Source of the DNA: Acidimicrobiaceae bacterium
Lineage (GTDB): Bacteria; Actinomycetota; Acidimicrobiia; Acidimicrobiales; RAAP-2
Direction of reading: 5' to 3'
DNA: 49,293 nucleotides
Assembly: GCA_003133325.1 (NCBI GenBank)
Contig: PKXA01000092.1
Location: 1-49,293 of the forward strand
The position numbers and the translations under genes are program-made. The notes below the pieces were generated by a model that was given only the letters and a program-made list of their open reading frames with translations, was not told the origin of the DNA and did no database searches. Shown piece by piece: positions 1,773-23,743 of this stretch; positions within the stretch are counted from its first letter, which is position 1; every line of letters starts with the position of its first letter.

Positions 1773-2831
1773 TCAGGCGTCGATGACGTGACGACGGGTG
1801 ACGGTGAGGGGTGATCGCTTGACCAGCAGGCCGGCTTCGGTCGGAGCCACGTCGGCGGCCGGGTAGGCGGCCAGCAACATGGTCTGCAACGCCCCTGGTC
1901 CCGACTTCCCCGGCTTTCCGAGGACGGCCTTCTTGAAGTCGCGCACGCTCGCGTACTGACCCCCGGTCTGGGATGCCAGCTGCTGCCAGGTCACGAGCAC
2001 TGAGTTTCGCTTGCCATGGTTGAGGGTGAACACCCGCCGCACCAGCCAGTAGTACAGGTCGATCGCGAGCGCTCCTGCGTTGGCGTCTTGGAGGTTACGC
2101 AGCGCCCGAAGGTCGATGGGTACGGCTCGATCCATGATCGAGGCGGCATATTCGGCGGTGAGCCGGATCGTGCTCGGGAAGAGGGTGTCGCCGTGGCGGT
2201 GCCGATCGCTCCACCACAGGTTCACTCCGCCAATGAAGCTGAAGTGCTCGCCTCGATGGTTCCATGCACCATCGCCATCTTCCCGGGTGTCGGTGACGAT
2301 GACGTCGGCGTAAGCGAGGCGCGTGATCTGGTCGGCCAGACGGGTGGCGTTGCCTCGGCTTCCACCACCGTTGCTTCTGTAGCCGATCGCGTGCAGGAAG
2401 GCGTTCATCGACCCTCCGAGGTCCAAGGTCAACATGTCGGGATGCCAAGCGTCCCCGCCGCGCTTCACCTCCGTCTCGATCCAGGCAAGCAGGTGGCGAG
2501 GGATGACGCCGAAGGGGTACGCCCATCGCTCCCTGGCGGTGCCCGCACCGACCAGGCCGGGCCGCAGGCGCATGGTCACGCTGCCATTGACCTGGACCCA
2601 CTCACGGGGGACCTCGCCGTTTCGGTCGAGCCTCGGCTCGCGATGGGGAAGAGCGGTCAGACACCACAGTGGGGCCACATAGCCCACAAGCCCGGCTGCC
2701 TTCGCATCCTCCTCGTCGAGCTCGGCGCCGAGGAGAAACAGTTCGAGGGTGCGGGGATCGAATACGGATGGACCGTCGGCGGGGGCCGCCCGGTGACGAA
2801 TCCTGCGAACAGGACTGAACGTTTGAGTCAT
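1773..2831 (-). CDS. repA: Plasmid-type replication initiator RepA
   Basis: A 352-residue protein matching the plasmid-encoded RepA family (RepA_C type). The recognisable core is the block PFGVIPRHLLAWIETEVKR at about residues 106-124, followed by LDLGGSMNAFLHAIG and a basic GGGSRGNATRL segment near 136-165 that leads into a helical DNA-binding region. Members bind iterated origin sequences and start replication of plasmids or of integrative elements that replicate after excision. The ATG at 2831 has a good GGGAGG Shine-Dalgarno 9 bases upstream. The gene lies 21 bp downstream of an unidentified gene on the same strand, probably in one operon. Its presence beside a relaxase is the main evidence that the left half of the window is a mobile replicon. 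No iterons were recognised by eye. Confidence 0.8.
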   Translation of the reverse strand: MTQTFSPVRRIRHRAAPADGPSVFDPRTLELFLLGAELDEEDAKAAGLVGYVAPLWCLTALPHREPRLDRNGEVPREWVQVNGSVTMRLRPGLVGAGTARERWAYPFGVIPRHLLAWIETEVKRGGDAWHPDMLTLDLGGSMNAFLHAIGYRSNGGGSRGNATRLADQITRLAYADVIVTDTREDGDGAWNHRGEHFSFIGGVNLWWSDRHRHGDTLFPSTIRLTAEYAASIMDRAVPIDLRALRNLQDANAGALAIDLYYWLVRRVFTLNHGKRNSVLVTWQQLASQTGGQYASVRDFKKAVLGKPGKSGPGALQTMLLAAYPAADVAPTEAGLLVKRSPLTVTRRHVIDA

Positions 2832-3743: not shown

Positions 3744-3970
3744 GCCGATAGCGGGGGGAGATCCGGCTAACGGTGAATTCCCGACGTCGACGCATGTCCG
3801 TGTTCGGGTGGCGGTGACCTCGCGACGAGGTCGGTGGCGATTCGGTGACGGCGAATGGGTTGGCATCCATCCGTTGTCCGCCTAGAAGGGGTGACGGCAT
3901 AACCACGAATCGAGGACACTTTCGGGACGAACTACGCAACCAAAAGTCCCTGCAGCACTATGGTCTTCGG

Positions 3971-4705
3971 ATGGAGCGCAACTTCCGACTCGCAGACGCG
4001 ATCCATCAGCGGGGGTGGAACACTCAGCGGTTCGCACAGGAGCTCGACGTAGATCCGAAGACCGTCGAGCGTTGGGTCAAGAGCGGTAGGACACCTCATC
4101 TGCGCTCACGGGAGAGTGCTGCATCAGCGCTCGGAGTCCCGATGGCTGTGCTTTGGCCCGAGGTAGACGCGCCTATGAACGGCGTGGGCGAACTAGTCGG
4201 CCTGTACCCAACGAGGACGGAGGTCGCTTCGGCGACGATCCGATCGCTCTTGGCAGACGCGACTCATCACATCGACGTACTTGCTTACGCCGGGCTTTGG
4301 ATGTGGGACGCCATACCGAACTTTGCGGAGATGCTCGCGGCGAAGATCAGTAGCGGAGTTGAAGTGCGCGTCTGCCTCGGTGATCCAGATAGCGAGGCAG
4401 TGCAGCTGAGGGGGGATGAAGAGGGGATTGGGGCGAATCTCGCGGCCCGGTGTCGGCTGGCCTTGGGATACGCCCAACCGATTATCGACTTAGACCCAAT
4501 GGCCGTGCGCTTGTCCGGAGCTACCCTCTATTCGTCGATTCTTCGATTTGATGACGACCTGCTTGTCAACATGCATCTGTGGGGGAACCCGGCTGCAGCC
4601 TCGCCGGTGATCTGCTTCCGCAAGGACGAATCGCAGGGAATCGCAAGCAACGTCATCCGCTCGTTTGAGCGGGTATGGGAGCAAGCTCAGTCAGCGGTCG
4701 GGTAG
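3971..4705 (+). CDS. HTH regulator with PLD-like C-terminal domain
   Basis: A 244-residue protein. Residues 1-60 form a helix-turn-helix of the XRE/Cro type (FAQELDVDPKTVERWVKSGRTPHLRSRESAASALGVP). The rest resembles the phospholipase-D-like domain found fused to such HTHs in streptomycete regulators: LYPTRTEV, then IDVLAYAGLWMWD, VRVCLGDPDSEAVQLRGDEEGIG, and LYSSILRFDDDLLVNMHLWG. I see no classical HKD pair, so the domain may sense a phosphate ligand instead of cleaving it. The start was chosen at MERNF because it begins the HTH; no ribosome-binding site is obvious. The 3' end overlaps the convergent ispF-like gene by 19 bases. In other actinobacteria this regulator type often sits beside HD-domain genes, as it does here. 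Confidence 0.8.
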   Translation: MERNFRLADAIHQRGWNTQRFAQELDVDPKTVERWVKSGRTPHLRSRESAASALGVPMAVLWPEVDAPMNGVGELVGLYPTRTEVASATIRSLLADATHHIDVLAYAGLWMWDAIPNFAEMLAAKISSGVEVRVCLGDPDSEAVQLRGDEEGIGANLAARCRLALGYAQPIIDLDPMAVRLSGATLYSSILRFDDDLLVNMHLWGNPAAASPVICFRKDESQGIASNVIRSFERVWEQAQSAVG

Positions 4706-5175
4706 ACGAGTACGCTCGCCCACGCTCCACACGCAGTGCCTTCACCTTCGGGACCGAGACCATCGTTGGATCTGGCCTTGATCGAAACGTTGCTGCTGTC
4801 AATACCGAGAGCGTCGGACACATTGGCGCGCATCTCTTCGACGAAGGGGCGCAGCTTGACCGTGCCGAGGACAACGAACGCGTCGATATTCACGATCTCG
4901 TAGCCAGCCCGCCTGACGTGGCCGGCGAACTGGCGGAGGAAATCAAGACTGCGGGCGTCCTCGGCCTCGGGGTCATCCTCGGGGAAGTGTGTCCCAAGGT
5001 CGCCATCAGCGATAGAACCAGCCAGAGCGTCAATCAGAGCATGACAAAGCACGTCCCCGTCAGAATGGGTATGGAACCCCACGGGAGCAGGGATGGTGAC
5101 ACCACCCAAGACCAGTGCATATCCAGGTAGCAGCCGGTGGATATCGTGCCCAATCCCCGTGCGACAATGTTTCAT
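4687..5175 (-). CDS. ispF: IspF-like cyclodiphosphate synthase homologue
   Basis: A 162-residue homologue of 2-C-methyl-D-erythritol 2,4-cyclodiphosphate synthase, close to the normal length of 155-165. Metal ligands are present: D11 and H13 in GHDIHR, and H45 in SDGDVLCHAL, followed by the typical LADGDLGTHFPEDDPE-like segment. The nucleotide-binding loop is unusual. After K133 the family usually has KATTxExLGFxGRxEG; here it is KARSNDGLGPEGEG, two residues shorter, with the loop Arg missing and the Glu replaced by Asp. Canonical IspF makes MEcPP in the MEP isoprenoid pathway, but none of that pathway is nearby. The ATG overlaps the stop of the HD gene (ATGA, 5172-5175), so the two are coupled. 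The gene may be a paralogue with an altered substrate. The gene symbol denotes homology, not proven activity. Confidence 0.85.
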   Translation of the reverse strand: MKHCRTGIGHDIHRLLPGYALVLGGVTIPAPVGFHTHSDGDVLCHALIDALAGSIADGDLGTHFPEDDPEAEDARSLDFLRQFAGHVRRAGYEIVNIDAFVVLGTVKLRPFVEEMRANVSDALGIDSSNVSIKARSNDGLGPEGEGTACGAWASVLVYPTAD

Positions 5176-5771
5176 TGGAGGACTCCTTGCTCAATGGCTA
5201 GCTGAGTCTCCACCAGATGCACGGCCGCTAACAGTTCAGGCAGATTGGCGCGGGTAGCTCGATGCACAGCGGACTCTGGTGGGTAGCGATGCAAGATATC
5301 TGCGATCCGGTTGTCCGGTGTGCAGCATTCTCCGGCCGGCGACGAAGTGAGGTCCGCCCATGTGAGCACTGCCTGGGCGAGTTCGGGAGGTGGGGGAAAC
5401 TCCGTCACGAGTTCATTCTTGAGGTGGCGGATATCCGCTTCGGCGCCTGCACGCGTGTGCCACGCGACGAGGCGGCAAACTTCAGGTCTCCACCCATGAG
5501 TCCGCAACCACCGAGCTCCGTCGAGCGGATGGAACCCGGATGCAACCGCTTGAGGGGCATATCCCACATCGTGCAGCCAGGCAGCATCGCATAGAGCGGA
5601 ACTCCACTGGGCATCCAACAGATTGGAGGCGGTTGCCGCTTGGCGTGCGACAGCTCTTGAATGCTCCACCCGGGTTCCGACTGCAAGCAGAAGTTCGGAT
5701 GCGACGTCAGACGCTCCCACACGAAGGACCCTACCCACCTGAGCGTGTGAATGTTCCGTGACGGTTGGCAA
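5172..5771 (-). CDS. HD-domain phosphohydrolase
   Basis: A 199-residue HD-superfamily protein with the full metal set visible: H37 (VEHSRAV), H67-D68 (AWLHDVGY), H81, H105 (VAWHTRAG) and D140 (TWADLTSS). HD enzymes of this size hydrolyse nucleotides, cyclic nucleotides or other phosphate esters; the substrate is unknown. The frame opens with a TTG at 5771, and in-frame GTGs at 5738 and 5720 are plausible starts; no good Shine-Dalgarno separates them. The stop codon overlaps the ispF-like ATG, so translation is coupled and the two products are probably stoichiometric partners. A large inverted repeat at 5765-5799 covers the TTG, which favours a downstream start and an operator function for the repeat. 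Confidence 0.8.
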   Translation of the reverse strand: MPTVTEHSHAQVGRVLRVGASDVASELLLAVGTRVEHSRAVARQAATASNLLDAQWSSALCDAAWLHDVGYAPQAVASGFHPLDGARWLRTHGWRPEVCRLVAWHTRAGAEADIRHLKNELVTEFPPPPELAQAVLTWADLTSSPAGECCTPDNRIADILHRYPPESAVHRATRANLPELLAAVHLVETQLAIEQGVLQ

Positions 5772-5799
5772 TCAGGCCGTCCTGGCCGGCAGTTGCCAA
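5765..5799. repeat. Inverted repeat at the head of the HD-ispF operon
   Basis: Perfect 7-bp outer arms TTGGCAA and TTGCCAA enclose a second imperfect dyad (AGGCC/GGCC). It sits at the extreme 5' end of the HD gene and could be the operator of the convergent HTH/PLD regulator. No sigma-factor consensus was confidently placed. Confidence 0.4.
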
Positions 5800-5913
5800 G
5801 TCAGGACCCGCCTGCTCCCTGCGGGTCCGGTAACGCACGGGAATGGTCTCGTTCGTCACGGGCAGTTCCGTCAACAAGAGGAGCCCCTCGTCGCATCGGC
5901 CATCCTGCTGTTC

Positions 5914-6123
5914 TCAAGCAACGTCTATCAGCCCAGTCGCGCTACCTGGTCGAGGGATCGGCTGCCCTGCTTCACGGACGTCGTCAAGGTAGGCGCTGAC
6001 GGCCTCGTGGATAAGCACCTCGACCTCTTCACGGCTAGCGCCGACAGCGGTGCAGCCCGGCAGATCAGGGACATAGGCGCCCCAGCTCGTATCGCCTTGC
6101 TCGTAGACAACGGTGTAGCGCAT
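5914..6123 (-). CDS. hicB: HicB antitoxin
   Basis: A 69-residue HicB-type antitoxin. The partial RNase-H-like fold is clear from YTVVYEQGDTSWGAYVPDLP, then GCTAVGASREEVEVLIHEAV and AYLDDVREAGQPIPRP. It is the short form without a C-terminal HTH or RHH extension, so it may not autoregulate alone. The start at 6123 (MRYTVVYE) has a strong GAGGAGG Shine-Dalgarno located in the end of hicA, 10 bases before the ATG region. It follows hicA by 10 bp in the usual toxin-then-antitoxin order and is the last gene of the five-gene operon that begins near 9165. The frame is open further upstream, but that extension overlaps hicA and is not expected to be translated. Confidence 0.85.
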   Translation of the reverse strand: MRYTVVYEQGDTSWGAYVPDLPGCTAVGASREEVEVLIHEAVSAYLDDVREAGQPIPRPGSATGLIDVA

Positions 6124-6133
6124 CAAGACCTCC

Positions 6134-6337
6134 TCATCGCCGGTCGGGTCGATCGAACCCGGCCTCGCGGTAGATAGATGCAAGCGTACCTGGCGGCACG
6201 TCGGTTCCTTCGTTGCCGGCCACCACAACCCGCCGGGCCGGCTGGTCGGGATGGCGGTAGATGCGATGGCTACCACGCTGGCGATGCAACGACCACCCGT
6301 GGGCTTCCAGATCCTTCAGCACTTCCCGGACCTTCAC
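6134..6337 (-). CDS. hicA: HicA mRNA interferase toxin
   Basis: A 67-residue HicA toxin, a double-stranded-RNA-binding-fold ribonuclease that cleaves mRNA when free of HicB. The conserved core is VREVLKDLEAHGWSLHRQRGSHRIYRHP, with the catalytic histidine at residue 24 in RGSHRIY, followed by a VPPGTLASIYREAGF C-terminus. The start is a GTG at 6337 that overlaps the stop of the helicase gene as GTGA (6334-6337). That overlap, together with exact agreement with the family N-terminus, decides the start over the longer upstream frame. Toxin synthesis is therefore likely coupled to helicase translation, which is unusual for a toxin-antitoxin locus. Confidence 0.85.
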   Translation of the reverse strand: MKVREVLKDLEAHGWSLHRQRGSHRIYRHPDQPARRVVVAGNEGTDVPPGTLASIYREAGFDRPDRR

Positions 6338-8352
6338 AGACCCACGGCCCGTGCGGCATCGGGAACCGAGTCGGAACTCGGTGTGGCTCCGGGTTGCGGT
6401 TTTTTGGGCTTTCGAGGCCGGGCGATCGGCGCCACCCGCTCGGGCATGACTGAACGCCACCCGCCGTTCGGCCCGCCGATGAGGGTCACCGATCCATCGC
6501 TCCCGAAGCCCGTCACCCGATACGCCGAACTTCGGTCGCCCCGAATACGGACCTGTGTGCCCACGGGCGGCAGCGAAGGGGGTCGAACAGTCGTGGAGAC
6601 ACGCTCGGCGGCTTGCTCGATCGGGGCGTCTGCATGGTCGGGAACCCCGTCGAGGAACTTCAGGGTCACGTCAATAGCGCCCTGGTCCGTGCCGGACTGG
6701 TGGGCCTGCATCGCCTCGATATGGGTCTGCCCGGACTGTCGGGCGAATGCATATCTCCACATCTCGGCTCCGGCCTCGGCGGCCACCAGCGCCTCGGGAC
6801 GAGTGGCTCCGGCGGCAATGGCGTGGTCATATCCCGGCGGGTCCTGGTCGGCGTGCCCGTACCGGCGGCCGGGTGCGGGTGAATCCTTCTTCACCTTCGC
6901 CATTCCCCCCACCACAGAGGGGTGATCGTGGACCCAAGCCAAACCGCCGTTGTCGAGCCGGCACATGGCGCGGGTGACCGTTACGTAGGCAAGCATCGCC
7001 TCCTCGCGTTGGACCGGCCCCGGCGTTCCGGTCACCGGATCATCTTTCGGGGAACGAAAGTCGTCGCCGACGAGGACCTGTCCCCACTCTCGCCCCTTTG
7101 CCTTGTGGGCGGTGGAGATGGTCAGCTCGGCCTCGGATTCGGGAACACACGAGTGGATCGCTCCGATGATCGCCTCAGGCCCGTGTTTGTCGATGAGGTA
7201 CACCGCGACGGCCAGGTCCGACCCGCCAGGGTCGTGTTCGGCGTAGTCCTGCAAATCGGCCCAGTCCTTGAAGGCCACAAGTTCGGGGTGCCAGGCGGGC
7301 TCGCCCGCTCTCATTCGCTGTGAGCCTTCGGCCAGACGAACCATGTCTTCGCCACCACCAACGAGTGCCACCGGTCGGTCGTCTTCTTGGGCGGCCATGA
7401 CCTCGGAGACACACCCTCCATTGGTCCTACACAGGATCGCGTCGGGAGGATCGACGGGGCCGAGGGAGGACTTCCGGTGGGGAGAACCGACGAGGCGCAT
7501 TTCGGACCCGATTACGCCCAACCAGACGTTCGCCTCCTCGGCGATGACGGGGCCAAATCGCCACGACTGGCTGAGTGCCACGTGGTGTTCGGCCTCCACC
7601 TGGTCGAGAAAGTCGGTGGCCCCTCTCCACCCGTAGATCGCTTGCGCCGAGTCACCGACGGCAATCAGTTGAGATGCCTGGCGGGTCACGGCATCGGCGA
7701 TGGCCGGGTCTGCATCTTGGGCCTCGTCGAATAGCACGAAGTCGTAGTCGAACTTTGGTCCGGAGAGCTGCCAGAGCTTCAGATACACATCATGCGACGG
7801 CTTCAATTGGCCAGTAGGGGCGGAGAGGTCCGCCCATGCCCGCCGGGCTACCGACACCACCGTTGCGGCAAGCCCGGATAGATCGGTGTCCCCGGGAGCC
7901 TCCGGGGGGACGAAGTGCTTGCGGGTGATGTCGACGTCGGCAGAATGGCAGAACCGATCAACTGCTCGTAGGGCCATCGACGCGACTGTCGATGGATCCA
8001 GATCCGGGCCTGAGTCGAGTGGTACCCAAGGGGCCCTCAGGACGCCTGCAGCTTTCTTGGCGGTGACCCGTGGGCCGTTCAGCCGGGAACGCATGGGAGC
8101 GCCGAAGGAGCGGTAAGCGAGGCTATGAGCGGTCCGGCAGTCCACGTTCCGGGGGAAGGACTGTTCGGCCTCGGTCTGGATCGCTTTGTTGTAGGCCAGG
8201 TACAGGCCCTTCGCCTCCGGCCGGGTGGCAGAGAGCAGACGGAGGGTGGACGTCTTGCCGGTCCCGGCGCCGGCGTGGATGACCACCGTGCCTCCGGTGA
8301 CGAAGGCATCGATGGCTGCTTGTTGCTCGGCCGTGGGTTTGAGGACGCTCAT
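6334..8352 (-). CDS. UvrD/PcrA-like superfamily 1 helicase
   Basis: A 672-residue SF1A-type DNA helicase. Motif I is HAGAGTGKTST at residues 26-36 with catalytic K33. Further motifs are DFVLFDEAQDADP (motif II), VGDSAQAIYGWRGA (III), LSQSWRF (IV), STAHKAKGREWGQVLV (V) and AMLAYVTVTRAM (VI). It is shorter than full PcrA/UvrD and more like the helicases found in plasmids and defence islands. About 200 residues after motif VI are charged and of unknown role, ending with VRIRGDRSSAYRVTGFGSDGSVTLIGG-like beta segments. The ATG overlaps the stop of the preceding small gene (ATGA, 8349-8352) and its own stop overlaps hicA. The role may be in conjugative DNA processing or defence; context does not separate these. 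Confidence 0.9.
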   Translation of the reverse strand: MSVLKPTAEQQAAIDAFVTGGTVVIHAGAGTGKTSTLRLLSATRPEAKGLYLAYNKAIQTEAEQSFPRNVDCRTAHSLAYRSFGAPMRSRLNGPRVTAKKAAGVLRAPWVPLDSGPDLDPSTVASMALRAVDRFCHSADVDITRKHFVPPEAPGDTDLSGLAATVVSVARRAWADLSAPTGQLKPSHDVYLKLWQLSGPKFDYDFVLFDEAQDADPAIADAVTRQASQLIAVGDSAQAIYGWRGATDFLDQVEAEHHVALSQSWRFGPVIAEEANVWLGVIGSEMRLVGSPHRKSSLGPVDPPDAILCRTNGGCVSEVMAAQEDDRPVALVGGGEDMVRLAEGSQRMRAGEPAWHPELVAFKDWADLQDYAEHDPGGSDLAVAVYLIDKHGPEAIIGAIHSCVPESEAELTISTAHKAKGREWGQVLVGDDFRSPKDDPVTGTPGPVQREEAMLAYVTVTRAMCRLDNGGLAWVHDHPSVVGGMAKVKKDSPAPGRRYGHADQDPPGYDHAIAAGATRPEALVAAEAGAEMWRYAFARQSGQTHIEAMQAHQSGTDQGAIDVTLKFLDGVPDHADAPIEQAAERVSTTVRPPSLPPVGTQVRIRGDRSSAYRVTGFGSDGSVTLIGGPNGGWRSVMPERVAPIARPRKPKKPQPGATPSSDSVPDAARAVGL

Positions 8353-9165: not shown

Positions 9166-9445
9166 GACTACCAGCGAGGAGAGATCCAGAGTACGGACTT
9201 CAGTCGCCTTAACCGGCCACCCGACACGACCTCCATCGGCCGCCAGCACCACCCGCCATTGCCGCCACCTGGACCGTCCACCGGTCACCAGCACCCCCTA
9301 CAGCCACCCGCCAACCACCGCTACTTCACACCGTTGGCACCCGAGGTTCACAATTTCGTGACCAGCGACTTCTCGGTAGCTGGATGCGCTCCCGCTTGTA
9401 GTTGCAGTGGCGCTTCCCATTACCAGAAAGCGGGGCCTGGACACG

Positions 9446-12400
9446 ATGATCTCGATCCGGAGAATCAGCTTGGGTGGCGGGTTCCGCTACCTCATAGACT
9501 CCGTGGCGGTCGGGGACGGAGCGCCGGAACAGTCGAGCAATCTGACCCGCTACTACGCCGAATCGGGAACGCCTCCTGGCGTCTTTCTGGGGTCGGGTTT
9601 GGCTGATTTGAACGACGGCAACGGAGTCGAGAAGTGGTCGCAGGTGACCGCACAGCACCTCGTCAACATGCTCGGGGCCTGCGCCGATCCGATCACCGGC
9701 GATCCGCTCGGGGCCACGCCGCCCAGCGGCACCAGGCAGGCTCCGGTGGCTGGTTTCGACCTCACGTTCAGCCCGTCGAAGTCCGTTTCGACCGCTTGGG
9801 CACTGGCCGACGAGGGAACCAAAGGAGTCATGTACGAGTGCCACCGGCGAGCGATCGACTACGTCATCGCTTACGCCGAACGAGAGGTGTTCCACTCCCG
9901 GTCTGGCCACGCTGGGGTGGTCCAAGAGGACGTGACCGGGGTGGTGGCGACTGCCTTCACCCACTGGGACAGCCGTGCCGGCGATCCGCAGCTTCACGAC
10001 CACGTGGTGGTGATGAACCGGGCCAAGAGTGTGTCGGACGGCCGGTGGAGGACCCTCGACAGTCGGGGCCTCTACAAGTCGGTCATCATGCTCGGGGAGA
10101 TGCACCAGGGGGTTCTCTCCGACTACCTGACCGAAGCGCTGGGGGTGGGGTGGGATGCCCGCAGGCGTCGGCACACGGACACGCCCCGGTGGGAGATAGC
10201 CGGCGTTCCCGAGACGCTGATGGCGGAGTTCTCCCAACGGGCCGAGCAGATCGCCGACCACAAGGACCGGTTGCGTGCCAACTTCGTGACCGCCCACGGC
10301 CGGAGACCGACCGCCGTGGAAGACATGCGACTCCACCAACATGCCACCCTGGCGACACGACCCGACAAGCAGCACCGGAGCTTGGCCGAGATGACCGAGG
10401 GATGGCGGGAGAGGGCCGCCAGCTACGTCGGTGACGAGCAGGTCGCTTGGGTCGCCAGCCTCACTGGTCGGAACGACTTGCCCCTGCTCCGTGTCGGCGA
10501 TCTGGCCGACGAGATGCTGGGTGATGCCGCATGGGCCGTCGTCGCCAAGGTGGCCGAACGCCACTCCACCTACAGCCGCCAGAATCTCATGGCCGAGGCT
10601 CACCGCACCATCCATGGGGTGCGTTTCGCCACCCCCGATGACCGGCTGGCCGTGGCCGAGCGAATCACTCATCTCGCTGTCGAGTGCTCGCTGACGCTCA
10701 CGCCACCGACCGTCCATCACACACCGGACCGCTACATCCGGGCCGACGGCAGCTCCCGGCTCCGGCCGAAGGACCACACCGTCTACACGACACACACCCT
10801 CCTCGAGGCCGAAGCTCGCCTCCTCGATGCCGGGCGCCGGGTGGATGCCCCGACCGTAAAGATCGCCACCATTGCGACCATCGCTGAGGCCCCGCTGCCG
10901 GGCAAGGAGTACGCACTCTCGACCGATCAGGCGCTCGCCATCGAGAAGATCGCAACGTCCGGGAGGGCCCTGGACGTACTCGTCGGGCCAGCCGGGACCG
11001 GCAAGACAAGCACCATGGCCGGGCTCCGGGCTGTCTGGGAGACAGAGCACGGTCCGGGGTCGGTGATCGGGCTCGCACCCTCTGCAGCTGCCGCCGAAGT
11101 GTTGGCCAACGACCTCGGGATCGACACGGAAAACACCTCAAAATGGCTGACTGAGCATCGCAAGCTCTCCGGCCAGCTGGCAGAGCGGGACAAGCTCGCA
11201 GGCAAGCTGGCACGCCATCCCTATCCCCTCTCTGGCTCTGCGGAACGGATCAGGGACCGGCTGCAGAGGCTAGACGCCGACCTCTCGCAGTGGCAGCTCC
11301 GGGGGGGCCAGCTCGTGATCGTGGACGAAGCCAGCCTGGCTGGAACGTTCGGGTTGGACGAGCTGATGAGCGCAGCGACCGATGCAGGGGCGAAGGTGCT
11401 CCTGGTCGGAGACTGGGGCCAGCTCAGCGCCGTCGACGCCGGTGGAGCCTTTGGCCTACTGGCCAGGGATCGGGGCGATCTCGCACCCGAGCTGACCGAC
11501 GTTCGTCGGTTCACCGAGGACTGGGAGAGGACAGCGAGCGTCGAGATGCGCCTCGGCAGAGAAGGAGTCATCGACGCCTACGAGGCCCACGGTCGGATCA
11601 CCGGGGGCGAACGGGAGACCCTGTTGGACGCCGTCTATGTGGCCTGGAAGTCCGACGTCGATGCCGGCAAGTCGAGCCTGATGATCGCCGGCGATTCCGC
11701 AACGGTCGCTGAGTTGAACCGGCGAGCCAGGGCCGATCGGGTGGCATCGGGGGCTGTCACCGGTTCTGGCCTGGCTGTAGCCGGACGCCAGATGGCCGGA
11801 GTGGGGGATGAAGTCGTCACTCGCCAGAACAACCGTCTCCTCGCTACCGGCAAGCGCTGGGTGAAGAACGGCGATCGCTGGGTTGTCACTGCCAGCAACG
11901 ACGACGGCAGCATGGCCGTGAGGCGGGCCGGTGGTGGCGGCGAAGTGGTACTCCCTACCGCCTACGTCACCGACCATGTCGAGCTGGCCTACGCCTCGAC
12001 CGCCCATCGGGTCCAGGGGAGGACCGTCGATACCGCGCATGCCTTGGTGTCACCGACCACCACCCGAGAGGTGTTGTACGTGGCCGCCACACGCGGTCGG
12101 GAGTCCAACCGGCTCTACGTGGACACCTGCTACGACCCGGACCCCCAGACCTCCCATGACGGAGTGACGAATCCGCAGACGGCCCGCGAAGTCCTCGTTG
12201 GCGTCCTTTCCAACGAGGGGGCCGACATCTCCGCACACGAGACGATCAGGCGGGAACAGCACGCCGCCGATTCGTGGCCGACGCTCTGTGCCGAGTATCA
12301 GACGCTTGCCAAGGCAGCCCAGGCTGAGAGGTGGGAGGCCCTGCTCGATCGTTCCGGCTTGGCCCTGGAAGCACTCGATCTCGTGCGATCGAGCGAAGCC

Positions 12401-12991
12401 CACGGTCCGTTGTTGGCGGCGTTCAGGGATGCCGAGAGCAGGGGGGTGGACATCGAGACCGCATTGCCCCGGCTGGTGCAGGCACACACACTGGCTGATG
12501 CCGACGACGTGGCGGCCGTCCTCCATGCTCGGGTCGAACGGTATGTGCAGAGGAGTGGGAGCAACCGCCGGACCGCCGGCAATCTCATCGGTGGATTGAT
12601 ACCCCGAGCGTTGGGTGTCACCGACCCGGACATGGCTCGAGCCCTCGAAGATCGGGACCGAGCGTTGGAACAACGTGCTCGGTTCCGGGCCGAGCAGGCC
12701 GTTGCCCATGGCGAGATATGGACACGAACTCTCGGGCAAGTGCCGAGCGACCCAGTCCAACGTGAGCGTTGGTTCGCCGGGGTGTCGACCGCCGCCGCCT
12801 ACCGGGAGAGGTGGGGCGTCAGGGGAGAAACCACGCTCGGGTCGGATGTCACCTGCATCGAGCAGATCGGCCATCGCAAGCGTGCCCAGGAAGCGATCGA
12901 CCGGGCCACGGCCGTCGGTCATCGGTTGCCGGGGGAGGCGCGATCGGAGTCGGAAGTGGTGCAAGTTGCACCGACCGAAATAACTCTTTGA
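9446..12991 (+). CDS. traA: MobF/TraA-type conjugative relaxase-helicase
   Basis: A 1,181-residue fusion of a TrwC-like relaxase and a RecD-like helicase. The N-terminal domain has candidate catalytic tyrosines Y36-Y37 (SNLTRYYAES), the FDLTFSPSKSVS segment near 104-115, and the metal-binding histidine triad H173, H184, H186 (FTHWDSRAGDPQLHDHV). The helicase half has Walker A GPAGTGKTST near 513-522, VDEAS near 626 and VGDWGQLSAVD, with AYASTAHRVQGRTVD and EVLYVAATRGRE later. Such proteins nick the transfer origin, stay bound to the 5' end and unwind the strand for conjugation. The start at 9446 (MISIRRISLGGG) matches family N-termini better than the ATG 13 codons upstream. No coupling protein or secretion gene is visible, so the element is either mobilizable or continues to the left. 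Confidence 0.92.
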   Translation: MISIRRISLGGGFRYLIDSVAVGDGAPEQSSNLTRYYAESGTPPGVFLGSGLADLNDGNGVEKWSQVTAQHLVNMLGACADPITGDPLGATPPSGTRQAPVAGFDLTFSPSKSVSTAWALADEGTKGVMYECHRRAIDYVIAYAEREVFHSRSGHAGVVQEDVTGVVATAFTHWDSRAGDPQLHDHVVVMNRAKSVSDGRWRTLDSRGLYKSVIMLGEMHQGVLSDYLTEALGVGWDARRRRHTDTPRWEIAGVPETLMAEFSQRAEQIADHKDRLRANFVTAHGRRPTAVEDMRLHQHATLATRPDKQHRSLAEMTEGWRERAASYVGDEQVAWVASLTGRNDLPLLRVGDLADEMLGDAAWAVVAKVAERHSTYSRQNLMAEAHRTIHGVRFATPDDRLAVAERITHLAVECSLTLTPPTVHHTPDRYIRADGSSRLRPKDHTVYTTHTLLEAEARLLDAGRRVDAPTVKIATIATIAEAPLPGKEYALSTDQALAIEKIATSGRALDVLVGPAGTGKTSTMAGLRAVWETEHGPGSVIGLAPSAAAAEVLANDLGIDTENTSKWLTEHRKLSGQLAERDKLAGKLARHPYPLSGSAERIRDRLQRLDADLSQWQLRGGQLVIVDEASLAGTFGLDELMSAATDAGAKVLLVGDWGQLSAVDAGGAFGLLARDRGDLAPELTDVRRFTEDWERTASVEMRLGREGVIDAYEAHGRITGGERETLLDAVYVAWKSDVDAGKSSLMIAGDSATVAELNRRARADRVASGAVTGSGLAVAGRQMAGVGDEVVTRQNNRLLATGKRWVKNGDRWVVTASNDDGSMAVRRAGGGGEVVLPTAYVTDHVELAYASTAHRVQGRTVDTAHALVSPTTTREVLYVAATRGRESNRLYVDTCYDPDPQTSHDGVTNPQTAREVLVGVLSNEGADISAHETIRREQHAADSWPTLCAEYQTLAKAAQAERWEALLDRSGLALEALDLVRSSEAHGPLLAAFRDAESRGVDIETALPRLVQAHTLADADDVAAVLHARVERYVQRSGSNRRTAGNLIGGLIPRALGVTDPDMARALEDRDRALEQRARFRAEQAVAHGEIWTRTLGQVPSDPVQRERWFAGVSTAAAYRERWGVRGETTLGSDVTCIEQIGHRKRAQEAIDRATAVGHRLPGEARSESEVVQVAPTEITL

Positions 12992-13204: not shown

Positions 13205-14515
13205 GTGGAACAGGGCACGAGCGATGGCGATGATCTGCGGGGAGAGCTTCGGAAACGTCGAGGCCGAGCTTGGATCAGCGCGGTGTTGGGACGGCCGGTC
13301 GATGGCGTCGCACCTCTGCTCCATGCCTTGGTCGTGGTCGGGCCTCGCCCGGAAGGCTGGATGGAACGAACCTGGGCCTACGGCGAGTGCTCCTTCACTT
13401 CCATCGCGGCGTCGACCGCGAGGCTGGCGTCCGTCCTTGTTCCCGAGAGCGACGCAGCGCTCAATGTGGGATCGGCCCGCGTGGGTCTCGAACTGACGAA
13501 CGGCAACTTCAACTGGGTCCGCAAGCCCAGTCTGGCTCTCTACGACGAGCTCACCTTGCCGTGGCCGTCGGTGGCCTACACCATCAATATGACTAACCAA
13601 GGGTCCGCGTTCCCTCAGAACGGCTATCTGGTCGGCGAGGGCGACGCTCCTTCGTTCCCGACGTTCGGGGCGGCGTACAACGCCTTCTACCACGGCAACT
13701 TCGTGGTGTCGGGTACGAGCAACCCGCAGCTCGGCCAGGTCTCGATGCGGTTCGTCGACGGTCGAGCGCGGATCGGCCGGGTTCGCATTCGACCGACGTC
13801 ACTTGAGGTCTGGGTCGGTGGACGTACTCTGCGGGGCACTCGGTTGGAGCTGAACGGAGCCGAGTACCGGACCTCGGTCGACTTGGACAAGGCTGGCCGG
13901 TTCGCGTTCCCCCTCCCCGCCGGCCTTCCATCGGACGCCTGGCTCTGGCTCAAGGAGGGGACCGATTGGCGTGACTTCCGCGCCCTCAGCTGGGAAGGCA
14001 GCCGGATTCCCAACGTCGAGACCGAACTACCCAGGGACCCCATTGCAGAGCTGAGCCTCCTGGCGGCTCAAGGCGAAGGTCCTCACCTTGAGTACAAGGA
14101 GAAGCTCCCCGACGGCCGAGATGAGAAGCGCCACGTCTTCAAAACCGTCGTAGCCTTCGCCAACGGCGACGGTGGCACCTTGCTCTTCGGGATCGGCGAC
14201 GGAGGTGAGCGGCGCGGTATCAAGGACAAGCTGCCCGAGGGCCGTCGTCGTCTGAACGATCTCCTGCGAGACATCATCGATCCGTCGCCCCAGGTGCGCA
14301 TCGAGGCTCATCGATTGGACGGGAAGAACATCCTCGTGCTCGAAGTCCTCTCTAGCGGAGGTGTCCTGCACGCGTTGACACTCGACCAGAACAAGCCCGA
14401 GTACTACGTCCGCCGGGACGGGACGACCTTCTACGCCCGCCCGGATGAACTGGCCGCAGTCGTTCGGAGGGGCTCCCCGCCCTCCGGCTCCCTGCCATGG
14501 TTCGCTCAGCAATAG
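13205..14515 (+). CDS. AlbA_2/Schlafen-type putative DNA-binding protein
   Basis: A 436-residue protein with a GTG start at 13205. The C-terminal part, from about residue 285, is an AlbA_2 (Schlafen-like) domain: E-x-K motif in GPHLEYKEKLP near 290-301, KTVVAFANGDGGTLLFGIGD near 312-331, VRIEAHRLDGKNILVLEV, and a closing EYYVRRDGTTFYARPDEL. Such domains occur in bacterial regulators and in defence proteins, where they may bind nucleic acid or ATP. The N-terminal 280 residues are beta-rich, with many aromatic residues, and not recognised; they may be a sensor. A HEPN gene follows after 47 bp on the same strand, so the two may act together. The gene opens the island of defence-type genes running to 23743. 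Confidence 0.75.
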   Translation: MEQGTSDGDDLRGELRKRRGRAWISAVLGRPVDGVAPLLHALVVVGPRPEGWMERTWAYGECSFTSIAASTARLASVLVPESDAALNVGSARVGLELTNGNFNWVRKPSLALYDELTLPWPSVAYTINMTNQGSAFPQNGYLVGEGDAPSFPTFGAAYNAFYHGNFVVSGTSNPQLGQVSMRFVDGRARIGRVRIRPTSLEVWVGGRTLRGTRLELNGAEYRTSVDLDKAGRFAFPLPAGLPSDAWLWLKEGTDWRDFRALSWEGSRIPNVETELPRDPIAELSLLAAQGEGPHLEYKEKLPDGRDEKRHVFKTVVAFANGDGGTLLFGIGDGGERRGIKDKLPEGRRRLNDLLRDIIDPSPQVRIEAHRLDGKNILVLEVLSSGGVLHALTLDQNKPEYYVRRDGTTFYARPDELAAVVRRGSPPSGSLPWFAQQ

Positions 14516-22546: not shown

Positions 22547-23743
22547 GTGGATCCAACGAAGTTTGTAGCGTCAGAGGCGGGCAAGGTGGTCCGCACATCG
22601 GGCTCGCACGGCTACCACGCCTTCGTCCCGGTACCGATCCCGAGGACTGTGGCGATCAGCCCGGAGACCGTGCTCCTTCTGTCCGAAGCGGACGATGCTC
22701 TGGGACGTCTGGCTGGGTCCGGGAGGCTGCTCCCGAACCCCCATCTCCTCGTCGAGGCCTACCTGACTCGGGAGGCTCTGGCCAGCTCCCGCATCGAAGG
22801 GACCCAGGCGTCTCTGACCGAGGTATTCCAGGCCGCCGCCGGAGGTCTCCACGGGTCGAGCGACGTGGAGGAGGTCGCGAACTACATCGAAGCGCTGAAA
22901 CTCGGCCTCGCCCGGCTCGACGAGCTGCCCGTCTGTCTCCGACTCATCAGAGAGATCCACGGAGTGCTCCTGCGGGACGTCAGGGGCAAAGAGCACCAGC
23001 CGGGGGAGCTCCGGTCGACGCAGAACTGGATCGGCACCATCGGAGATCGGATCGACACGGCCACGTTCGTCCCACCCCCGCCGGAGCACCTCGACTCCCT
23101 TCTCGCCGACTGGGAGAGATACGCGAACGAATCGCCTTCGGTGCCGACGCTTATCCAGTGCGCCCTCCTGCACTACCAGTTCGAGACCATCCACCCTTTT
23201 CTCGACGGCAACGGGCGGCTCGGTCGGCTCCTGATCGTGCTGTTCCTCGTCCAGCGCGGTCGGCTTCCGAATCCCCTCCTGTACGTCAGCCGATTCTTCG
23301 AGACGCATCGCAGCGAGTACTACGAACGCCTTCAGATGACGAGGGAGCGGGGGGAGGTCCAACAATGGCTCCAGTTCTTCCTCACCGCTGTGGCCGAACA
23401 GGCGAAGGACGCGGTGCGCCGAGCCGAGCTGCTCCTCGACATCCGAGAGCGCGCCCGCGGCAAGCTCCACGGGTCGAGAAGCCGTGCCGTCGAGGTCGTC
23501 GACCTGCTGCTGGGGAACCCAGTCATCACTGTCCAGCGTGTCCAGCAGAGCCTGACGGTCAGCAACCCCGGAGCCATGAACCTCATCCGCCAGCTCGAAG
23601 GCCTCGGCATCATCAGCCACGCTGGCAGAGCCGGACGCGGGGGCCGGTACTTCTGGGTGGCACACGAAGTCCTCGAAGCGCTCGAGGGGACCGAACCCGC
23701 TTCCGCAACACCCGAGGTTGTTACCCGGGAGGGATCGTCATGA
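22547..23743 (+). CDS. fic: Fic-family AMP-transferase-like protein
   Basis: A 398-residue Fic protein. The active-site loop HPFLDGNGRLGR is at about residues 214-226, and the N-terminal inhibitory helix motif S-x-x-x-E-G is in SSRIEGT near 80-86, so it is a self-inhibited class II Fic. The C-terminal 90 residues form a winged-helix domain (NPVITVQRVQQSLTVS, AMNLIRQLEGLGIISH). Fic enzymes usually transfer AMP to a target hydroxyl; the target here is unknown. The GTG start at 22547 lacks a clear Shine-Dalgarno. It is the last gene before the tRNA-derived attachment site and is a common passenger of mobile elements. Confidence 0.9.
   Translation: MDPTKFVASEAGKVVRTSGSHGYHAFVPVPIPRTVAISPETVLLLSEADDALGRLAGSGRLLPNPHLLVEAYLTREALASSRIEGTQASLTEVFQAAAGGLHGSSDVEEVANYIEALKLGLARLDELPVCLRLIREIHGVLLRDVRGKEHQPGELRSTQNWIGTIGDRIDTATFVPPPPEHLDSLLADWERYANESPSVPTLIQCALLHYQFETIHPFLDGNGRLGRLLIVLFLVQRGRLPNPLLYVSRFFETHRSEYYERLQMTRERGEVQQWLQFFLTAVAEQAKDAVRRAELLLDIRERARGKLHGSRSRAVEVVDLLLGNPVITVQRVQQSLTVSNPGAMNLIRQLEGLGIISHAGRAGRGGRYFWVAHEVLEALEGTEPASATPEVVTREGSS

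Follow-up and report, generated by a model that had tools for sequence, protein, structure and literature searches.

Why would a mobile element carry an ispF homologue that overlaps a phosphohydrolase gene and faces a gene for a putative sensor regulator? The question is raised by a stretch of 49,293 nucleotides (hereafter the window), which is contig C56 of a host genome of 4.05 Mb in 133 contigs. Three genes are concerned: an HTH/PLD regulator gene (3971-4705, forward strand, called as an ORF of 244 aa), a gene for a divergent IspF (YgbB) paralogue (4687-5175, reverse strand, 162 aa, supported by the ORF and by Pfam and TIGR profiles) and a gene for a predicted HD-domain metal-dependent phosphohydrolase (5172-5771, reverse strand, 199 aa, supported by the ORF and Pfam). 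The HD gene runs into the IspF gene with a 4-bp ATGA overlap. The regulator gene is convergent with this pair, and the ORF ends place a 19-bp tail-to-tail overlap with the IspF gene at 4687-4705. Both the overlap and the convergence had been read correctly in an initial annotation of this DNA.

The same annotation had placed the IspF homologue on a mobile element. The trio was found to have as neighbours a RepA_C replication protein (1773-2831, reverse strand, Pfam 5.6e-22), a HicB-like antitoxin and HicA toxin adjoining the HD gene (5914-6460, reverse strand), a UvrD-like helicase (6334-8352, reverse strand) and a TrwC (MOBF) relaxase-helicase (9407-12991, forward strand, relaxase profile match 1.4e-75), and its mobile-element setting is therefore well supported. 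TrwC and RepA were present in the window, and no FtsK-type transfer gene was identified there. In its right half the contig resembles chromosomal DNA, and this suggests that the element carrying the trio is integrated. Other genes on the contig code for a Schlafen AlbA_2-type protein (13205-14515, forward strand), a complete QatABCD anti-phage system (16416-21528, reverse strand; PADLOC matches of 3e-94, 1e-11, 2e-95 and 2e-50 for QatA, QatB, QatC and QatD), a Fic/DOC protein (22547-23743, forward strand) and, at about 27000-49293, an MFS transporter, a DAP-dehydrogenase-like protein, a periplasmic binding protein, an amidohydrolase and APH.

Recurrence of the three genes was surveyed by scanning 84,980 species genomes for relatives of the cassette IspF. 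Because a hit had to share an exact peptide, more distant members may have escaped the scan; it returned four loci with an IspF of 77-82% identity, one at 57%, and none further above 50%. Four genomes yielded five more copies of the trio in the same order, HD then IspF with HTH/PLD convergent, one of these copies being the second within a single carrier genome (contig C267 of G199, locus L123). Co-occurrence elsewhere, which the initial annotation had set as a test, was thus observed, and because the same trio recurs in other genomes its association is not due to chance. The tail overlap of the HTH/PLD and IspF genes measured 19-22 bp in all six copies, and a contig end cut the HTH gene in L030, L031 and L123. 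All six copies come from draft and metagenome-assembled genomes, several of them on short contigs; an error of genome binning is possible for any single copy, and the five carrier genomes agree.

Backbone genes were partly common to the trio loci: the UvrD-like helicase was shared with L030/L125 and L033/L127, and TrwC with L124, L125 and L126. The immediate neighbours varied: HicAB adjoined the trio in the window, a NERD nuclease lay to one side of it in L032, and the place was taken by an AAA_25 protein at L123 and by the UvrD-like helicase at L033. In L126, a second HD copy (5552-6070) comes after a homologous HicAB pair. Of 397 genomes sampled from the order to which the window belongs, only four had the trio, and since these carriers lie in four different families the distribution fits horizontal spread. 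Close relatives of the cassette IspF were also sought among 72,556 plasmids, among 50,697 phages and in a set of 2.9 million viral contigs; these searches gave only housekeeping-type IspFs (up to about 49% identity) or nothing, and the IspFs found in phage records look like host DNA. When 395 genomes from the class were scanned for a signature motif, the window's own host was the only match. Two Actinobacteria with raised profile scores, G432 and G444, were considered as carriers of a cassette IspF and proved to have housekeeping ispD-ispF.

We then asked whether the cassette IspF could be the ordinary pathway enzyme. The host's other ispF is on another contig, between ispD and rlmB and next to carD, so the cassette gene does stand away from MEP-pathway genes as had been claimed. 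A separate carD-ispD-ispF locus was present in the host and in all four other carrier genomes; every carrier thus owns a housekeeping ispF, a point that the initial annotation had marked for checking, and the cassette IspF is therefore not the pathway enzyme. It is nevertheless a family member, scoring 155.5 bits against TIGR00151 (above the cut-off of 116.45) and 8e-52 against Pfam YgbB (score 176, cut-off 26.7).

The six cassette copies were compared residue by residue with 88 housekeeping sequences and the E. coli protein, using E. coli numbering. The zinc ligands D8, H10 and H42 (corresponding to D11, H13 and H45) were kept in all six, as were H34, S35, D38, D46, D56, G58, K104 and K130. 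Changes common to the six and rare elsewhere were A33T, L49A, L54D, D63E, Q101G, P103V, L106R, T132R, T133S, E135D, F139P, R142E and E144T. In crystal structures, cis-Pro103, which is conserved in over 95% of IspFs (PMC3927217), and the backbone at 105-106 shape the cytosine pocket, T133 binds the alpha-phosphate, and E135, an Asp in 18% of IspFs, holds Mg; R142 and E144 gate the isoprenoid-binding cavity, an aperture seen in the E. coli and M. smegmatis enzymes (PMC3927217, PMC2151065). In every cassette copy the cis-Pro103 of the cytosine pocket is Val and the Arg142-Glu144 aperture is Glu/Thr; R142 itself is present in 59 of the 88 housekeeping IspFs. Read against these crystal papers, the residue pattern indicates an intact reaction centre, with T133S and E135D as changes that keep the chemistry, alongside altered nucleotide recognition and an altered cavity gate. 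Since residues of the cytosine pocket and the trimer aperture are altered in all six copies, the enzyme may form something other than the cyclic diphosphate MEcPP.

In a phylogenetic tree with 89 housekeeping IspFs, the six cassette IspFs and an orphan from Scrofimicrobium grouped together (SH-aLRT 100), and a stem of 1.46 changes per column separated this clade from the housekeeping set. Among the six copies dN/dS was 0.07-0.20 (NG86, with dS often saturated), and IspF was the most constrained member of the trio, with identities of 75-81% versus 48-62% for HD and 53-70% for HTH. The orphan, in Scrofimicrobium canadense (L034, 5001-5505), is split into two overlapping frames by a frameshift or sequencing error. 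It lacks HD and HTH genes, and another ispF is present elsewhere in that genome; considered as a counter-example to the linkage of the trio, it looks rather like a decayed stray copy.

The HD protein passed the Pfam cut-off (HD, 3e-05) and gave a confident AlphaFold2 model (pLDDT 90). Its metal ligands were all present as the initial annotation had stated, although they number six and not five: H37, H67-D68, H81, H105 and D140, invariant in nine relatives. We take this pattern to suit a two-metal site. Searches for its function by sequence, and by structure against the PDB, gave generic HD fold matches only; PgpH, PhnZ, PPX and YqeK were considered as functional counterparts, and their matches were too weak to assign. 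No HD relatives were found in the viral contigs searched. On mycobacterial plasmids, members of the HD family occur alone or with a fused C-terminal HTH_3 domain (L007, 3905-4807; L008, 3917-5029).

The regulator consists of an XRE-type HTH (residues about 1-66) followed by a PLD-fold domain (about 72-244), and its homologues favour a start at 3971 over a longer frame from 3845. The PLD-like character noted initially was borne out by structure prediction (AlphaFold2, pLDDT 88, a confident model), Pfam giving no PLD domain match for the window protein. The best structural match of the PLD domain was archaeal TrmBL2 (Z 13.7, rmsd 2.6-4.0 A over 136-144 residues); the sugar-binding domain of TrmB (Z 11.7, rmsd 3.1 A over 133 residues) and PLD nucleases were also among the matches. 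A TrmB Pfam match was sought for the regulator and none was found, and DUF5919 matched weakly in its homologues. The catalytic HxK motif is HxW in the window protein (H202-x-W) and HxY, HxF, HxA or HxS in relatives. Judged from this motif the domain is catalytically dead, and because HxK is lost in both the window protein and its relatives, it more probably senses a ligand than catalyses a reaction.

Upstream of the regulator gene, a conserved block, GACGSCRTAAC...GGA...GGGACG (3893-3930, forward strand), is kept in the window, L032 and L033, and is the only exact site in the window. It may represent an autoregulatory operator or promoter. No operator common to the HTH and HD promoters was found above shuffles. 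Relatives of the regulator without Nudix were seen in Streptomyces phage Alderaan (L029, 4022-4753), where the gene is near a Cro-like gene, and in viral contigs L130, L131 and L132; in this phage and these contigs the same fold possibly serves as a phage regulator.

What, then, accompanies the regulator and the HD protein where there is no IspF? The HTH/PLD family was present in 16 of 346 Actinomycetota genomes surveyed, and 13 loci were read out for up to 9 kb per side. A Nudix gene adjoined the HTH/PLD gene in 12 of the 13, mostly directly downstream on the same strand; an HD gene of the trio's family was close to and convergent with it in 10, and both were present in nine. In one locus the HD and HTH genes stood side by side, with nothing between them. 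AICE markers (integrase, RepSA, RRQRL, GntR) were found in eight of the 13 loci, and an 18-kb Streptomyces plasmid carried a trio of HTH/PLD, HD and Nudix adjoining GntR and FtsK genes. The window regulator was about 30-44% identical over its full length to the regulators of the Nudix loci. A Nudix match was sought in the window and in the IspF cassette loci, and none was found.

An mdp-nud-xre cluster was described by Ghinet et al. in 2011 as common to four Frankia AICEs, Sco5349, pMEA100 and pSE211 (PMC3218068). Taken together with our HTH/PLD survey, this published cluster leads us to see the window trio best as mdp-ispF-xre, with the same HD and regulator families and IspF in the Nudix slot. 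The match to the published cluster was drawn from domain composition, gene order and the AICE setting, the surveyed loci having been compared directly and the named elements by their description. A variant of mdp-nud-xre in which Nudix is replaced by a divergent IspF is what is new here; we found no literature linking ispF with conjugative elements. The signal-circuit idea of the initial annotation is partly retained: a sensor-like regulator, a phosphohydrolase and IspF are supported as a unit, but the logic of a synthase plus a hydrolase does not define it, because the trio is a variant of a wider HTH/PLD, HD and Nudix module (PMC3218068) whose enzyme slot is variable.

We conclude that the trio is probably a metabolite-sensing switch of a mobile element rather than a part of the isoprenoid pathway, because at least four other genomes have its genes together and because it corresponds to a known three-gene cluster of conjugative elements where Nudix stands in the IspF position. 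In its fuller form, that of a small metabolite-responsive switch carried by MOBF-type elements of one actinobacterial order as the counterpart of the mdp-nud-xre of AICEs, we hold this reading with moderate confidence. Several observations speak against it: HD matches only a generic fold, the HTH and HD promoters gave no common operator, the backbone in the window is TrwC/RepA and not FtsK-type, and HD relatives are also found by themselves on mycobacterial plasmids. Nudix and IspF enzymes are unrelated, yet each cleaves a nucleoside-diphosphate-X at its diphosphate and sets free an NMP; phosphate esters are the targets of HD enzymes, and the PLD-type domain of TrmB binds small ligands. IspF and HD would together set the level of a ligand of the (nucleoside) diphosphate type, to which the PLD domain of the XRE-type regulator, by analogy, would bind. 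The ligand-bound regulator would then switch its own gene, whose promoter region holds the conserved block, along with functions that serve the element. In pSAM2, conjugal immunity is conferred by the Nudix protein Pif, through a mechanism unknown in the 2011 account (PMC3218068), and by analogy with Pif the most plausible output may be control of replication or transfer, or conjugal immunity excluding a second copy.

As for the ligand, MEcPP can act as a bacterial regulator, altering H-NS binding in E. coli, which makes it a credible ligand here (PMC11582573); the changes in the pocket make a substrate outside the MEcPP route at least as likely. Somewhat doubtful is the specific scheme in which mobile elements have recruited the paralogue outside isoprenoid metabolism to act on another NDP-linked substrate and, with HD, controls a new signal for a PLD-domain transcription factor governing transfer or immunity.

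The trio might instead be a dedicated MEcPP circuit, in which IspF makes MEcPP from host CDP-ME2P, HD destroys it and HTH/PLD senses it. The retained zinc ligands, D56, G58, K104 and S35, the TIGR00151 score, the overlap of the HD and IspF genes and the action of MEcPP through H-NS in E. coli (PMC11582573) would all fit. We nevertheless regard it as unlikely, since P103, L106, T132, F139, R142 and E144 are changed in all copies (roles: PMC2151065, PMC3927217), the housekeeping IspF already makes MEcPP, and homologous modules have Nudix and no IspF.

A signal-controlled module for anti-phage defence or plasmid competition would suit a defence-rich element, with QatABCD, Fic and HicAB genes on the same contig, a PLD-fold domain in the regulator and related HTH/PLD genes in phages. 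However, neither IspF nor HD had a PADLOC match, the PLD catalytic motif is dead, and no effector gene is conserved beside the six copies. Defence is thus distinctly unlikely. For a CBASS-type system in particular, a CD-NTase with a linked effector, PADLOC likewise gave no match for IspF or HD, and the part of the neighbours scanned showed no conserved effector. There is a slimmer chance that the genes are metabolic cargo, an extra IspF lifting isoprenoid flux or bypassing a bottleneck, with HD and HTH linked by chance or simple co-regulation: the family match and intact zinc site agree with this, but other MEP genes are absent nearby, the IspF belongs to a long-branch clade with pocket changes, and its link is fixed to HD and HTH/PLD, the partners of Nudix in other loci. 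It is very improbable that the three genes simply ride along on one backbone by shared descent, with no function in common, as the shared UvrD-like helicase, TrwC and other backbone genes might suggest: the trio and its overlaps stay intact while what adjoins them changes between HicAB, a NERD nuclease, an AAA_25 protein and a helicase, and 10 other actinobacterial loci again pair HD with HTH/PLD.

The mdp-nud-xre cluster has been on record since 2011, with no mechanism attached to it. Filling of the Nudix slot by an unrelated enzyme with NDP-breaking, NMP-releasing chemistry narrows the possible class of ligand and gives a testable substrate. The trio would also exemplify the diversion of an IspF from isoprenoid synthesis, marked by a distinct and recognisable pocket.

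Compared with known systems, the cassette IspF shares the family profile, zinc ligands, D56/G58 and K104 of the housekeeping MECDP synthase (TIGR00151), and differs from it in its pocket and aperture residues, its separate clade and its lack of MEP neighbours. The regulator resembles the archaeal TrmB and TrmBL2 in joining a DNA-binding domain to a PLD-fold domain and in lacking HKD catalysis, but its DNA-binding domain is XRE-type and not TrmB-type, and identity is about 11-15%. With mdp-nud-xre, the trio shares an HD phosphohydrolase and an XRE-type regulator (of the families seen in the surveyed Nudix loci), the convergent arrangement and a location on mobile elements. In contrast to that cluster, it has no Nudix gene, its divergent IspF is joined to HD and not to the regulator, and the backbone in the window is of the TrwC/RepA kind, not that of an FtsK-type AICE. 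Finally, IspF is not homologous to Nudix, and the likeness to Pif of pSAM2, a Nudix protein of a conjugative element, would be one of analogy, in that both may occupy the same enzyme slot.
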